From assembly GCA_029555415.1 (NCBI GenBank), contig JAKPSI010000087.1, forward strand, positions 1 through 64,000: a DNA stretch of 64,000 nt. Direction: 5' to 3'. Below, one piece after another: positions 762-6,332 of the stretch. Both the position numbers and the translations under genes were made by a program. Below the pieces are notes generated by a model. It saw only the letters and a program-made list of their open reading frames with translations. It searched no databases and was not told where the DNA came from. This DNA is from Bacteroidota bacterium (GTDB lineage Bacteria; Bacteroidota; Bacteroidia; Chitinophagales; Chitinophagaceae). Every line of letters starts with the position of its first letter. Within the stretch, counting starts at the first letter, position 1.

Positions 762-835
762 GGTCCGGTAGCTCAGCTGGATAGAGCAGCTGCCTTCTAA
801 GCAGCAGGCCATTGGTTCGAATCCAATCCGGATCA
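762..835 (+). tRNA. tRNA-Arg (anticodon TCT)
   Basis: A complete cloverleaf can be drawn: acceptor GGTCCGG/CCGGATC with one G-T pair, D stem GCTC/GAGC, anticodon stem GCTGC/GCAGC with loop CTTCTAA, and T stem ATTGG/CCAAT with loop TTCGAAT. The anticodon TCT reads AGA (and AGG by wobble). CCA is not encoded. A promoter precedes it and an AT-rich hairpin terminator follows it, so it is probably transcribed alone. Confidence 0.95.
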
Positions 836-846
836 CAGAAATAGTC

Positions 847-898
847 AATAGTCATTAGCCGGTAGTCTTTAGTCCGTCCTAATGACTATTTTCTTTTT
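847..898 (+). terminator. Rho-independent terminator after tRNA-Arg
   Basis: A perfect 12-base inverted repeat, AATAGTCATTAG at 847-858 and its complement at 879-890, is followed by a T-rich tail. The stem and loop are themselves built from 7-base TAGTCnn words, so a heptad array has become, or supplies, the terminator. Confidence 0.75.
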
Positions 899-899
899 A

Positions 900-985
900 A
901 GCTGGATAGAGCATCCCGACTGCAAAGCGTCGGGAAGGCCATTGGATTCCCTGCCTGCCGGCAGGCAGGGAATCCAATCCGGATC
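900..985 (+). pseudogene. Partial tRNA-Arg copy with hairpins replacing two arms
   Basis: Three blocks are identical to the intact tRNA-Arg: 900-913 (D arm), 936-945 (variable region and T stem) and 971-998 (T stem, acceptor 3' half and 3' flank). The 5' acceptor strand is absent. The anticodon arm is replaced by a TCCCGAC/GTCGGGA hairpin (914-935), and the T loop by a GC-rich palindrome so that 941-978 is a perfect 38-base palindrome. It cannot make a normal tRNA. The GCA triplet in the first hairpin loop should not be read as tRNA-Cys. Confidence 0.8.
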
Positions 986-1012
986 ACAGAAATAGTCAGA
1001 AGTCTTTAGTCT

Positions 1013-1049
1013 GTAGCCGTTAGTCCATTCTAACGGCTACTCTTTTTTT
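1013..1049 (+). terminator. Hairpin terminator after the tRNA copy
   Basis: GTAGCCGTTAG (1013-1023) pairs perfectly with 1030-1040 and is followed by TCTTTTTTT. It corresponds in position to the terminator of the intact tRNA, but the stem sequence differs, so the two stems have kept pairing while diverging. Confidence 0.7.
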
Positions 1050-1115: not shown

Positions 1116-1147
1116 CCATTATCCATTATCAATTATCAATTATCATC
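1116..1147. repeat. Heptad array, CCATTAT family, at a stop codon
   Basis: CCATTAT/CAATTAT words occur in a row on the plus strand. In the sense of the leftward gene this reads TGATAAT, and the gene's own TGA stop (1143-1145) is the first word of the array. Confidence 0.85.
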
Positions 1148-4100
1148 TGAGAATATCAACATATCCCGCCATCTGCTTCCTCCCGTTCTTCGGATCCACG
1201 ATGTAATAGTAGGTTCCCATCGGTACCGGCTTGCCCTTGATCGTGCCGTCCCACGGTGTATCATAGCCGACCGAGTGGTAGATCAGTTGTCCGTATCGGT
1301 TATAGACATCCACCGTACAACCCGGATAGGAATCCAGATAACCGATGACCCATTTATCATGCACGCCGTCACCGTTCGGACTGAAGATGTTCGGAACAGC
1401 CGGGAATTTGAGGACCTTCACAAAGACCGATGAGGTATCTGCGCAACCGCCGCGGGCCGTCACTTTCAGCAGATAGGTGATGTCCGCCACCCCATTGACC
1501 GTCGGCGTTTCCACCGTATTGCTGCCATTGAAATACTGGTTGGGCGTCCACAGGAAATTCAGATCATTACCGCTCACCACCGGATGCAAGATGATGGATC
1601 CGCCTTCCAGTACCAGGCGGTCCGGACCCGCATCCACTTTCGGATACGGATACACGATCACCGTATCCGTGAAATCATTACTGCGGCATCCGAAACTATT
1701 ATAAGTATACAATGTCACATTATAAGTACCAGCTGCAGTGTAGGTATATCCGAATGTGGAACTCGTTCTCACCCCTCCGTCACCCAACGCCCAGTTCCAT
1801 TGCGTGGCCGTCCCACCCTGCTGGTTACTGATATCAGCGAACTGGAAGGGCTTGCCCACACAAACACCCGCGGGATCGGCCGTCCATTTAGCCTGCGGCT
1901 GATCATGGAACGTATTCACCGTTTTCGTTTTAGTGGCCACACATCCATCCGTACTCGTTACCTGCAGCTTCACCTGTACCGGTGTGGTGGCATAATAAGT
2001 ATGCGAAGGGTTCTGCGCGGTAGAAAAATTCACCGTACCACTGGCGGGATCACCAAAGTCCCATGACCAGTTGAACTGCGACTGTGTTCCGTCCGCGATC
2101 GTGGAAAGGTCCGTGAATACGGCGTTTGCGGCCGGCAGACATAAACTGTTCGGGAAACTGAAATCCGGTTTCGGCAACGGATGCACATTCACCCGCACGA
2201 CGGATGGTGCACTGCGGCAACCCTTGCTGGTCAGCACCACCAGGCTCGCATCAAAGGATCCCCAGGTGGCATAACTGTGAAAGATATCATCACCTACCGG
2301 ATTATTGGGCACAAAACTGCCATCTCCGAAATCCCAGATCCAGTTCGTCAGCGTTCCTTCCGTTGTGGTGGAATGCTGTGTATACTGGATCAGTTGATTC
2401 TCACAATAAGGTCCGATCACTTGCAGGGAAGCCACCGGCGGCTCCAGTACCTTGATGGTCTGTGTGGCACTGTCCGCACATCCTCCACCCGTACCCGTGA
2501 ATTTATATTGTAAGGTATGTACACCCGGTCCCGCGACAGCCGGTGAAAAAATACCGGTCGTGCTCACCGCTGTTCCACTGAAGACACCGGTGCCCGGTAC
2601 GTTTCCAATTTCAGTAGCAGCCGTGATCTGGAAAGGTGCTTTATCCAGACATACTTCATTCATCGGCACGAACAGCACCTGCGGCGCGGCATTCACCGTG
2701 ACCGTTTTCGTGATCTCATTCACACACTGCACACCGGAATAGGCGAGGTAACGGATATTGTAGGTCTTTGTTAAGGGCGACTGGAAATTCGGATACTTGT
2801 GTTTGTAGACCCTTCCTGCCACCGGGTAATCATCCGTATCAAAAACAGTGGGTGCACCTGCATTATCCCAGTAGATCTCCACTTTGGTGATGGCGCCCGG
2901 GAATACCGTGGACGCATCTTTGATGGACACCGTATCATTCGCGCAAAGTGCAGTTCCGTTAAGGGCGTTGAAATTCGCGACCGGAAAACTTCCGTTCACA
3001 TATAAATTTTGGGTGACCGTATCCCGGCAACCCTGGTTGGTCACGACATCCAGTGTGACCACATAAGCTCCCGTTGCCGTATAGCTGTGTTGCGGATTTT
3101 GCAGCACCGAAGCGTTGTTCGCGCCACTGCCCGGATCACCGAAGCTCCAGTTCCATCCGCTTACATTATCAGGCGTCGCTACTTTGGAAGTATCATTGAA
3201 CTGCGCGTAGGTATCATTGAGACAAACATCAGGCAATACATATCCCGCCAGGGGCTTGGGATGTACGATGACATTGCGCGTGAATACCGGATTCACACAA
3301 CCATGGTCATTCGTAACGATGAGGCCTACTGTATAAGTTCCTGCTGTCTGGTACACATGGGATGCCAGCTGTGTATTCGCAGCATTCGTACCGCTTGCGG
3401 GGTCACCAAAGACCCAGAGCCATGCTATCAGACTGGTCGCGTTAGGCACGGATACATCCGTGAAATTCACAGTGCCTTCCGCGCAATCCGGGCCCGAGAA
3501 ATTGAAGGCCGGCGAAGGCAGTTCCCAAACCGTAACGGTAACGGTCTGATTCATCGCCTGCACACAGGCCGTGGAGGAAGCATCCTGCACGCTGATCAAA
3601 GTATAATTGAAAACACCGGCGGTTGTAGTTGGCGCATTGACCGTTGCAGTGTTGCCGGTACTGGTGACCGTTTGCGGTGCCCCGTTATTGATCTTATACG
3701 TGAACGTATAAGGCGCGGTACTGCTGCTGCCCGTGAATGTGATCTGCGGTTCTGTTGTATTACGGCATACCCAGCTGTTGCCACTGATGATGGCTGTAGG
3801 CAGAGGATTCACGGTCACCGTTACTGATCCGGACTGGTTCTGGCCGCAATGGGTTGTAGCGCCATCCGTCACATTCAATAATTCATATACGAATGTGCCC
3901 ACTGTATTGGTCGGCACCGGAACGTTCACACTGTTACCTGCGGTAGTGGTCACCGTGAGCGGAGCTCCGTTGTTGATCCTGTACGTGAAAGTATAAGGTG
4001 CCACCGTGCCTGCACCGGTGAATACCACATTCGGTGAAGGCGCATCCCTGCATACTGAGGTATTGCCCGCGATCAAAGCCGTTGGCAACGGATTCACCGT

Positions 4101-6332
4101 AACGGTCACGGAGAGATTCAGGTCCTTACTGCAATGTGTGGTCGTACCATCCGCCACTTTAATGAGTGTATAAACGAATGTACCCGCCGTATTGGTCGGC
4201 ACCGCCACTGTAGCACTGTTGCCGCTACTGGTCACCGTTTGCGGCGCTCCGCTATTGATCTGATACGTGAAAGTATAAGGCGCTGTTCCGTCCGCACCCG
4301 TGAAAGTGATATTGGGTGACGCGTCATCCTTACAGACCGTCGTACTGCCCGTCAGTGTTGCGGAGGGTATCGGATTGACGATCACCGAACGTGTCGTGGT
4401 ATCGGACAAACAACCCACATCGGTGATCAGCGCATAGCGCACATTATAAGGCCCCGCGGCCGGATAGAGATGTGAAGGGTTATTACTGTTGCCGAATGTA
4501 TTGTCACCGAATTCCCAGTAACGCATGATCACCGGACGTCCCCCTGTTGTGGAATTATCCGTGAACTGTAATGGATTCGGGAAACAAACCGGCGGTGCCA
4601 GGAAGTCCGCTACCGGCGGATCGAACACCTGCAGGTTATACGTGATCTCCTGGGTTCCGCTGCAACCATCCGGAGTGGGATTTTGTGCCGTCACCCGTAT
4701 CGGGAAAGTGCCAACACTGGTGATCGTATAAGGTGTACTGATCTTATAACGGTAGAGTTGTTTACCATTGATCGTCCATGTAGAATCATACACCGGATTC
4801 GCAATAGAAACATTCGGGAACAGTCCGCTGAAATCCCAGGTGATGCTGGTGGGCTGATACGGGAAGACGATCGAGAAATAGAAGGGTGCATTCTTACACG
4901 CCGCGGGGAACGGTACCGTGGCATACTGATTCTGGATCGAAATGAACTGATACAGGTCGCGCACATTCGTACCCGCGTTATATCCATATGATTCCACATT
5001 CCCGAAACCATATGCGATGGCGAGGAAGCCGCTGTCGGATGTGATCTGATGCGTGGGATTGAGCAATGTGGAATTGGTCACCTCTTCCCTGACATAGGAG
5101 TACTGCGTACTCGGGATCGCGACCGGAACCGCAACCGGCGAAACACCATCCACTTTCAGCGAACTGAGATTGGATGTTTTGGTGATGATGTTGAGGAAGT
5201 GACGCGTGATATTGGTGTTCGGTGGTGTCAGGTCGGCACGGGCCGATAACACCGTGGTACTCGTCAGTGTCTGCTCCACCGGATTCAGCGCGATCATTTC
5301 CGGATCGCCCACCGAATTGTTATCGCAGTTCATCGTGATCACATACTGGAACACACAGATCGGTTTATCCGCAGTGATGATTCGGGATGTATTATTTCCG
5401 TTCGTATTGATCTCGTAATAAGAATTGCTGATCAGCTGTGCCAATGGTATCGGCACGCCATTCACACTGACGACGGTCGTGGGATCCTTCACCATGATCC
5501 GGAAAATATCATAAGACCGCAGCATGAAAGGCGCCGTGATATAGGTCTGCCCCCAGGCCACCAGCGGGAACATCTGCTGATACAGGTTATCTCCCGAACC
5601 CGCATTGGCACAGCCCATGGCCGTCCAGGTGGATCCGGCGAAAACAGAAATGGGCTTACACGGCGCATTGTTGGCCGATATGGATTTGACGTAAGATCCG
5701 GTCAGGTCGCCGCTGTTGGCCGACTGATACTGATACACATCTCCTTTGTTCAGTGTAACCTGAAAAGGCACATTGGCCGGATGGGTATTATTGCCATCCG
5801 CCTGCTTGGGCGTGATCTCGATCGTTGTATTATCCTCCGTGGCACATACTGCGAATTCCGATTTTGAATTGTTCGATGATGCTACGGATGCATAAGTTGC
5901 GATATAATATTCCCTTCCCAATACATTTGTGGGTAACACCAGCGTGGATCCGGAGCGTGCGGCATTGAGTTCGTGTGCATAGACCACGACCGGATGATCG
6001 GTCACGATATGGATCCCTTTATTCGTACCCACGCCCGCCACTTGTGTATTCAGCGCCAAACTATTACTGGGTGAGGAAGTGGAGGTCAGACGCAGTGTCG
6101 TCACCTGATTCGCGGTCACACTGAATGTTACGACATTACCATTCACGGACATGGTACCGGTCGCGTTCTGATCGGATGTGACATATAAAGCCAGGCGGGA
6201 AGTGGTGCCGTCGATATGGCCGAGATAGATGATCCAGAAATCCTTTCCTTTATTGGAATAGTCCTGCGCATGAAGCTTTGTACCGGCGAGTATACCGGTC
6301 AGCACTAACCAGAAAAGAAGGGCCTTTTTCAT
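1143..6332 (-). CDS. Giant secreted PKD protein, type IX substrate (type B CTD)
   Basis: A 1729-residue exported protein. Residues 1-22 are a signal peptide (MKKALLFWLVLTGILAG). The N-terminal part (FWIIYLGHIDG, then a block with DHPVVVYAHELN) resembles the IgGFc-binding N-terminal domain. Many PKD-type Ig domains follow, with motifs such as YWEFGDN, WLWVFGD and WIWDFGDG. The last 85 residues carry the gliding-motility-associated C-terminal sorting domain (FSPNGDGVHDKW, NRYGQLIY, WDGTIKGKPVPMGTYYY). Type B CTD proteins are exported by the type IX system and held at the cell surface; an adhesin role is inferred. Three tandem copies of a roughly 95-residue module lie between 3533 and 4380. The gene starting at 62523 has a related N-terminus. 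No ligand can be assigned. Confidence 0.93.
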   Translation of the reverse strand: MKKALLFWLVLTGILAGTKLHAQDYSNKGKDFWIIYLGHIDGTTSRLALYVTSDQNATGTMSVNGNVVTFSVTANQVTTLRLTSTSSPSNSLALNTQVAGVGTNKGIHIVTDHPVVVYAHELNAARSGSTLVLPTNVLGREYYIATYASVASSNNSKSEFAVCATEDNTTIEITPKQADGNNTHPANVPFQVTLNKGDVYQYQSANSGDLTGSYVKSISANNAPCKPISVFAGSTWTAMGCANAGSGDNLYQQMFPLVAWGQTYITAPFMLRSYDIFRIMVKDPTTVVSVNGVPIPLAQLISNSYYEINTNGNNTSRIITADKPICVFQYVITMNCDNNSVGDPEMIALNPVEQTLTSTTVLSARADLTPPNTNITRHFLNIITKTSNLSSLKVDGVSPVAVPVAIPSTQYSYVREEVTNSTLLNPTHQITSDSGFLAIAYGFGNVESYGYNAGTNVRDLYQFISIQNQYATVPFPAACKNAPFYFSIVFPYQPTSITWDFSGLFPNVSIANPVYDSTWTINGKQLYRYKISTPYTITSVGTFPIRVTAQNPTPDGCSGTQEITYNLQVFDPPVADFLAPPVCFPNPLQFTDNSTTGGRPVIMRYWEFGDNTFGNSNNPSHLYPAAGPYNVRYALITDVGCLSDTTTRSVIVNPIPSATLTGSTTVCKDDASPNITFTGADGTAPYTFTYQINSGAPQTVTSSGNSATVAVPTNTAGTFVYTLIKVADGTTTHCSKDLNLSVTVTVNPLPTALIAGNTSVCRDAPSPNVVFTGAGTVAPYTFTYRINNGAPLTVTTTAGNSVNVPVPTNTVGTFVYELLNVTDGATTHCGQNQSGSVTVTVNPLPTAIISGNSWVCRNTTEPQITFTGSSSTAPYTFTYKINNGAPQTVTSTGNTATVNAPTTTAGVFNYTLISVQDASSTACVQAMNQTVTVTVWELPSPAFNFSGPDCAEGTVNFTDVSVPNATSLIAWLWVFGDPASGTNAANTQLASHVYQTAGTYTVGLIVTNDHGCVNPVFTRNVIVHPKPLAGYVLPDVCLNDTYAQFNDTSKVATPDNVSGWNWSFGDPGSGANNASVLQNPQHSYTATGAYVVTLDVVTNQGCRDTVTQNLYVNGSFPVANFNALNGTALCANDTVSIKDASTVFPGAITKVEIYWDNAGAPTVFDTDDYPVAGRVYKHKYPNFQSPLTKTYNIRYLAYSGVQCVNEITKTVTVNAAPQVLFVPMNEVCLDKAPFQITAATEIGNVPGTGVFSGTAVSTTGIFSPAVAGPGVHTLQYKFTGTGGGCADSATQTIKVLEPPVASLQVIGPYCENQLIQYTQHSTTTEGTLTNWIWDFGDGSFVPNNPVGDDIFHSYATWGSFDASLVVLTSKGCRSAPSVVRVNVHPLPKPDFSFPNSLCLPAANAVFTDLSTIADGTQSQFNWSWDFGDPASGTVNFSTAQNPSHTYYATTPVQVKLQVTSTDGCVATKTKTVNTFHDQPQAKWTADPAGVCVGKPFQFADISNQQGGTATQWNWALGDGGVRTSSTFGYTYTAAGTYNVTLYTYNSFGCRSNDFTDTVIVYPYPKVDAGPDRLVLEGGSIILHPVVSGNDLNFLWTPNQYFNGSNTVETPTVNGVADITYLLKVTARGGCADTSSVFVKVLKFPAVPNIFSPNGDGVHDKWVIGYLDSYPGCTVDVYNRYGQLIYHSVGYDTPWDGTIKGKPVPMGTYYYIVDPKNGRKQMAGYVDILR
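3533..4380 (-). repeat. Three tandem 95-residue modules inside the PKD protein
   Basis: Each module begins NPxPTA, has a VCRD/VCKD cysteine motif, then APYTFTYxINxGAP, then a TAGxFxYTL segment and a second cysteine near TTHC. The spacing of the two cysteines suggests one disulphide per module. Similarity is high in protein and moderate in DNA, suggesting old duplication. Confidence 0.8.

Follow-up and report, generated by a model that had tools for sequence, protein, structure and literature searches.

A partial copy of a tRNA-Arg gene, in which foreign hairpins stand at the anticodon arm and in the T loop, lies next to the intact gene in the window analysed here, a stretch of 64,000 nt (G000:C122:1-64000) of a 3.97-Mb genome in 139 contigs. 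This copy is probably, though by no means certainly, an ORF-less relic or scar of a homing-type element that targets tRNA genes with a GIY-YIG nuclease and leaves a hairpin at the attacked loop. Since the window has no such ORF, the copy is assigned to these elements by family likeness, namely by its layout, its hairpin families and the complete locus on contig C48 of the same genome.

The intact gene (Table 1) is the only tRNA that ARAGORN and Rfam report in the window, and the copy was called a tRNA neither by ARAGORN nor by Rfam at the gathering score. The 63 nt between tRNA and copy are too short for any ORF, and thus no GIY-YIG nuclease is encoded there. The initial annotation had described a second tRNA-Arg copy with its anticodon arm swapped for a hairpin and a palindrome in its T loop, and sequence comparison confirmed this description, including the perfection of the palindrome. 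The segment ATTC+P20+GAAT (946-973) substitutes for the T loop, where P20 is a 20-bp palindrome; the longer palindrome around it owes its perfection to a single A that the intact gene lacks, by which GGATTC and GAATCC match. The D arm had been thought to be kept, but this holds only for the D loop and the 3' strand of the D stem: the copy begins at tRNA nucleotide 14, and hence the 5' strands of the D stem and of the acceptor stem are absent. Likewise, the copy had been taken to span 900-998; it does begin at 900, but the tRNA sequence stops at 987. The compensated terminator ascribed to the copy is present as a terminator-like hairpin, in which changes relative to the first hairpin fall on both arms. 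The 3' flanks of the intact gene and the copy are 83% identical over 80 nt. At up to two mismatches, P20 has two matches in the window (0.00 expected).

Table 1. Features of the tRNA-Arg locus in the window, and P20 in two other partial tRNA copies of the genome
Feature	Position	Strand	Basis or remark
Intact tRNA-Arg (anticodon tct)	762-836	+	ARAGORN; Rfam RF00005, 70.6 bits for 762-835
3' flank of intact tRNA; terminator-like hairpin, arms 847-858 / 879-890, then T-rich	837-898	+	Inverted repeats
Partial copy, tRNA nt 14-27 (D loop and 3' strand of D stem)	900-913	+	Exactly as 775-788; repeat family D2
Foreign hairpin TCCCGACTGCAAAGCGTCGGGA (TCCCGAC-TGCAAAGC-GTCGGGA) in place of the 17-nt anticodon arm (789-805)	914-935	+	
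Copied variable region and 5' T stem	936-945	+	Identical to 806-815
Perfect 38-bp palindrome, P20 and T-arm flanks, 19-nt arms	941-978	.	Inverted repeats
P20, 20-bp palindrome CCTGCCTGCCGGCAGGCAGG, inside T loop of the tRNA-Arg copy	950-969	.	
Copied 3' T loop, T stem and acceptor 3' half	970-987	+	Identical to 819-836; repeat family D1
Duplicated 3' flank; terminator-like hairpin, arms 1013-1023 / 1030-1040	988-1049	+	Inverted repeats
P20 in copy of tRNA-Leu(caa), C48, anticodon loop			CTCAAAA^TCTGC
P20 in copy of tRNA-Leu(gag), C103, D loop			GGCGAAA^TTGG

The locus is flanked on the minus strand by genes for a uracil-DNA glycosylase (32-724) and a 1729-aa PKD-domain protein with a CHU_C type IX secretion signal (1143-6332). 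Terminator flanks that consist of AGTC-like repeats (AATAGTCATTAG...), as at 837-898 and 988-1049, recur genome-wide, on C22, C69, C112 and other contigs.

The window copy has counterparts in its own genome. There are 15 exact copies of P20, of which 12 lie outside tRNA copies and three within partial tRNA copies (Table 1). Around all 37 places at which Rfam reports a tRNA, six partial copies were found, at five tRNAs, and all six bear hairpins; they come from the window or from stretches first picked by a hairpin or window match, and stretches picked by tRNA position alone (most of L088-L101; L269-L275) held no copy, hairpin-bearing or not. The six carry P20 in a loop (three), a TCCCGA-type hairpin replacing the anticodon arm (four: Arg, Lys twice, and Ala), or both. 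One of the two Lys copies is itself one of the 37 Rfam places and an ARAGORN call. On C48 a GIY-YIG ORF (PF01541, 60.6 bits) lies between the intact tRNA-Leu(caa) and its copy; at the other four tRNAs with copies, no GIY-YIG ORF was seen between tRNA and copy.

P20 is present in 15 of the 99 genomes searched, its own genome counted. It had been suggested that the same palindrome be sought in the tRNA loops of relatives, and it was indeed found in further partial tRNA copies of several genomes: in the 14 other genomes all 44 P20 copies were examined, and visual reading placed eight of them in partial tRNA copies, with nothing but such reading for the tRNA-Gly case (L075). At L044, L069, L071, L072 and L076 the copy and the intact tRNA are separated by a GIY-YIG ORF, and two of these relatives' loci (L044 and L076) combine this ORF with an Arg(tct) copy that carries P20. 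Two layouts were found. In the 5' layout a hairpin-bearing 5' piece of the tRNA is followed by the ORF and the intact tRNA, and in the 3' layout the intact tRNA with its terminator is followed by the ORF and a hairpin-bearing 3' piece with its own terminator. The window locus has the 3' layout without the ORF. Tandem forms occur at L044, L071 and L134.

A PF01541 search of nine genomes, long GIY-YIG proteins included, together with one further search gave 45 overlapping loci. Of these, 28 hold a tRNA, and 27 of the 28 hold a further tRNA-like stretch by BLAST, accepted at E up to 2 and at least 14 nt, a criterion under which some matches are weak by themselves. The tRNA types at the GIY-YIG loci of the relatives are Leu, Arg, Met, Val, Lys, Pro, Ser and Phe, and the hairpins, read by eye, differ among the tRNA copies. 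One universal mobile palindrome was considered and rejected, because the copies of other tRNA types carry hairpins of the TCCCGA, TCCGCC and CCCGCC families.

For a wider view, an alignment of six such proteins, mostly of Leu type, was used as a query, and the best 80 of 466 loci were kept. They belong to Bacteroidota, Ignavibacteriota and several Patescibacteria-type phyla. The nuclease ORFs are 77-91 residues long, and the GIY-YIG proteins match PF01541 with 60.6 and 62.6 bits. Among these best 80 of 466 loci, a tRNA on the same strand lies within 530 nt of the ORF in 71, and within 300 nt in 69; the nearest tRNA is tRNA-Leu in 70 loci and tRNA-Lys in one, a share that is partly an effect of the query, which was built mostly from Leu-type proteins. 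In nine of the 80, no tRNA was found in the stretch examined. Where the ORF precedes the tRNA (49 of the best 80), its stop falls 0-30 nt upstream of tRNA nucleotide 1 in 37 cases, while seven ORFs overlap the tRNA and five stop further off.

In the same best 80 of 466 loci, a motif search, from which three of the 71 loci were left out for short flanks, found a P20-family hairpin in 62 of 68 when the remnant side was searched, but in 3 of 64 control windows at a greater distance and in 8 of 67 on the far side of the intact tRNA. Among the six loci without a motif match, L153, L157, L161 and L221 have altered hairpins, L181 has a decayed remnant, and no hairpin is visible on the remnant side of L194. 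At L202, L206, L211 and L223, a single tRNA loop contains one hairpin nested in another or a tandem pair. One Leu D-loop pattern, sought in 395 evenly drawn Bacteroidota genomes, was absent from all of them, which marks this form as patchy. Viral carriers were considered and set aside: one D-loop pattern matched 22 viral contigs, in no case within a tRNA, which by estimate is about chance. A tblastn search with one Leu-type nuclease returned no phage record at E 1e-5.

The exactness of the insertions was examined with a scan that assumes no hairpin and asks whether skipping 10-60 nt, plus up to 22 tRNA letters, restores tRNA identity on both sides. At a threshold of 18, 126 loci with 135 tRNA calls yielded 105 hits, 11 duplicate loci having been left out, and a shuffled-tRNA control gave none in 133 scans. 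Two excisions in the window copy restore the tRNA, with scores of 26.9 and 20.2. Four hits (window p10, L176 p18, L181 p18 and L201 p24) were discarded as non-remnants, and the 101 retained sit in 77 of the 126 loci; the 49 loci without a hit include some with no tRNA in the stretch and some with decayed or partial remnants. Exactly 20 nt were excised in 51 of the 101 hits, and 33 excised segments contain exact P20. Compared with random local segments of the same length, the excised segment ranks above 95% in palindromic character in 71 of the 101 hits and above 99% in 58.

The positions of these segments largely follow the tRNA structure. Of the 78 pure insertions, 38 lie in a loop interior (29.0 expected under uniformity) and 27 at a stem/loop edge (6.9), compared with 12 within a stem (32.6) and one at a linker edge (5.8). 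The other 23 hits replace tRNA letters: four replace exactly the anticodon arm, five are confined to the T or D loop, and 14 include stem letters. As the loci are related, none of these hit counts represents independent events.

By its sequence, the remnant looks like the local tRNA. In the aligned stretch, 46 of 69 tRNA-Leu remnants have no mismatch to the local tRNA, and the tRNA of another locus fits better in only one of 69 to the left of the hairpin and in none of 69 to the right, with ties to a mean of 3.4 (left) and 7.6 (right) of 56 other tRNAs. The idea that the hairpin is the left end of the element is unsupported, as the local tRNA fits on both its sides. Since a hairpin is already present in remnants identical to the intact tRNA, it dates from the event itself or from shortly afterwards.

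In the wider family, outside the window, the nuclease ORF adjoins a tRNA and the tRNA type tracks the nuclease clade. On a nuclease tree of 83 columns with weak resolution (stars on 5 of 112 inner branches), tRNA type requires seven changes, compared with a minimum of 12 and a mean of 14.8 in 1000 shuffles. Hairpin family requires 10 changes (shuffle minimum 15), the labels of 20 loci, the non-Leu rows, having been set by eye, and hairpin position within Leu requires 20 (shuffle minimum 23). No signal was found for the anticodon, that is, the isoacceptor (19 changes; shuffled mean 19.9), or for phylum (10 changes; shuffled mean 9.98, 44 rows).

These observations suggest the following course of events. 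The complete element would be little more than a bare GIY-YIG ORF of 77-91 residues between an intact tRNA and a hairpin-bearing partial copy, an arrangement that other genomes show, as does the tRNA-Leu(caa) locus here. The putative nuclease would cut a tRNA gene at a loop position, and one broken end would then be extended on a donor locus, whose hairpin, a short piece of tRNA and the ORF would be copied. Synthesis would return to local sequence next to the tRNA or slightly beyond it, by which the intact tRNA would be regenerated. The native part of the tRNA at the break would remain, and the hairpin would both mark and destroy the cut site. In the window the ORF would have been lost, and the hairpins at two places in one copy may represent two attacks or marking at two sites.

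Junctions at two loci bear on the switch back to the local locus. At L226 and L188, which show insertion most clearly, the end of the ORF is followed by a few shared letters, a second local upstream flank (28 and 17 nt, respectively) and the intact tRNA, as expected if a loop was broken, one end was extended by copying a donor, and synthesis then returned to local sequence; at most other 5'-type loci the upstream flank is present once. The model also predicts an excess of mismatches on the ORF side, and in 48 Leu hits with a clear side these number 13 in 749 nt, against 5 in 970 nt on the native side (Fisher p 0.016, relatedness ignored).

Several points stand against this model. The hairpin interrupts the remnant, and the intact tRNA retains the supposed cut site uninterrupted; the model accounts neither for the escape of the intact tRNA from renewed cutting, except that tandem forms may stem from such cutting, nor for self-protection of the donor. 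The choice of a hairpin as the mark is likewise left unaccounted for. Hairpin positions vary within one nuclease family, and the tRNA letters between hairpin and ORF match the local tRNA as well. In a bolder form that we hold to be quite doubtful, these would be minimal elements found across phyla, with an ORF of about 80 aa for each tRNA type, local regeneration of the tRNA, and a clade-specific hairpin that tags the displaced part; the tagged tRNA piece, which fits the local target, might guide the nuclease or give it a nucleic-acid handle for recognition, the protein being too small for a DNA-binding domain of its own.

The alternative that survives best, although we regard it as unlikely, is that independent mobile hairpins (P20 and the TCCCGA type), similar to REP or MITE sequences, enter tRNA loops, that spare copies survive, and that the nuclease is a bystander. 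Short hairpins are moved without target duplication in REP/BIME sequences with RAYT and at the hairpin ends of IS200/IS605, and many of the inserts described here are likewise exact and without target duplication. The genome has one Y1 transposase domain (PF01797, on C33, 28.5 bits at a cut-off of 23). The 12 of 15 exact P20 copies outside tRNA copies, and the occurrence of P20 in other repeats in other genomes, also suit mobile hairpins. However, all seven P20 copies of five relatives (G039, G052, G058, G067 and G087) lie in partial tRNA copies. Moreover, the marking of 62 of 68 remnants (best 80 of 466 loci), including those identical to the intact tRNA, means that the hairpin is not a late random hit, and the hairpin family tracks the nuclease clade.

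Mobile hairpins that seek loops should do so elsewhere as well. The initial annotation had proposed that insertion recognises stem-loops in general; the recurrence of foreign hairpins at tRNA loops bears out part of that proposal, but general stem-loop-directed insertion is unsupported. Outside tRNA copies, P20 lies in predicted hairpin loops at 9 of 47 sites, where 9.8 are expected from other positions in the same sites, in a folding test so blunt that only 4 of 11 tRNA-copy sites fall in loops (2.2 expected). Loop-specific insertion was thus seen within tRNA copies and not beyond them, which also sets the present hairpins apart from REP/RAYT and IS200/IS605.

A second alternative, which seems to us rather improbable, is that the copy is a functional RNA with an extended tRNA-like fold that regulates, guides or neutralises the nuclease; its stems would have to stay, and hairpins would be admitted only in loops. 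The insert positions do largely respect the cloverleaf, the remnants match the local tRNA on both sides, and the terminator-like hairpin is retained. As RNA, 900-998 folds at -50.5 kcal/mol, which none of 200 shuffles equalled (z -5.96), but the palindrome alone supplies much of this energy. In addition, many remnants are only the 5' or the 3' part of a tRNA, from which a cloverleaf is impossible, and the 14 of 23 replacements that include stem letters also speak against a constraint on stems. The hairpin letters favour neither strand clearly: among 14 distinct 20-mers, G-T and A-C letters number six and three in hairpin 1, and three and four in hairpin 2. Paired changes at 5-12, 8-17 and 9-16 favour two overlapping 6-bp inverted repeats over one 20-bp palindrome, from few variants.

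Ordinary decay of a tandem tRNA duplication or of an integrase att site, or an assembly error, is very improbable: tRNA fragments are common at integrase sites and the locus is 1 kb from the contig start, but no PF00589 integrase matches on contig C122 (three in the genome), decay would not place hairpins whose removal restores the tRNA, as the empty control scans bring out, and the same arrangement occurs in the isolates Ekhidna lutea (L152), Algoriphagus chordae (L166), Salinimicrobium sediminis (L189) and Robertkochia solimangrovi (L206).

By sequence, the solved structures matched by the nucleases are UPF0213, SLX1 and I-TevI. We know of no mobile or tRNA-linked role for the UPF0213-type and SLX1 GIY-YIG proteins. 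What these proteins (1ywl, 1zg2 and 6seh) have in common with the present ones by sequence is the GIY-YIG domain.

The closest known system is SegB, a free-standing GIY-YIG homing nuclease of phages T4 and T6. The segB gene lies between tRNA genes, and its listed target is the tRNA intergenic region (PMC2988022, a 2010 review); a 2026 report places its cut sites within tRNA genes, with the motif RAWTSGAAC at 23 of 83 sites, and describes SegB-dependent amplification (PMC13096335). As in the loci described here, a GIY-YIG ORF adjoins tRNA genes, and cuts fall within such genes (PMC2988022, PMC13096335), as would be the case for the putative nucleases. Preferred inheritance and tandem amplification of the tRNA region are described for SegB. 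In contrast, SegB is phage-borne, and the accessible text of both sources describes no hairpin-marked tRNA copy, whereas the present elements are chromosomal, encode 77-91 aa, lie beside single tRNA genes and occur in Bacteroidota, Ignavibacteriota and several Patescibacteria-type phyla. Short hairpin-forming repeats that spread, partly into rRNA genes, are described for Volvox (PMC2670323) and for sponge mitochondria (RHE; PMC2800124), but in the accessible parts of these papers no nuclease ORF with a tRNA copy is described. A literature search, with preprints and most subscription papers outside its scope, recognised no bacterial tRNA-linked GIY-YIG elements with hairpin-marked tRNA copies.

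If the reading as a relic of a tRNA-targeting GIY-YIG element is true, the tRNA genes of many environmental bacteria, those of Patescibacteria type included, are hunted by a very small mobile element, which persists by rebuilding the gene that it breaks. A class of odd tRNA fragments and GC palindromes would then be explained. It would also become testable how a nuclease domain of about 80 residues distinguishes tRNA-Leu from tRNA-Arg genes, and why the attacked loop receives a hairpin.

P20 was also observed in settings other than tRNA copies. In G092 (L057-L064) a gacacaa-type repeat carries it time and again at CACAA^GACAC-like junctions, which as a target do not resemble tRNA loops. In G014 (L045-L049) it lies within an intergenic repeat, GTCATTCCGAGC...GCGAGGAATC, often at GCGAGG^AATC, and at L047 an altered flank makes the P20 palindrome longer. 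On C72 of the present genome (L024, near 3424), the flanks of P20 lengthen the palindrome to 20-nt arms (TATGTGCCTA...TAGGCACATA), and the flank looks as if it had been copied across to the other side, similar to 941-978 in the window.
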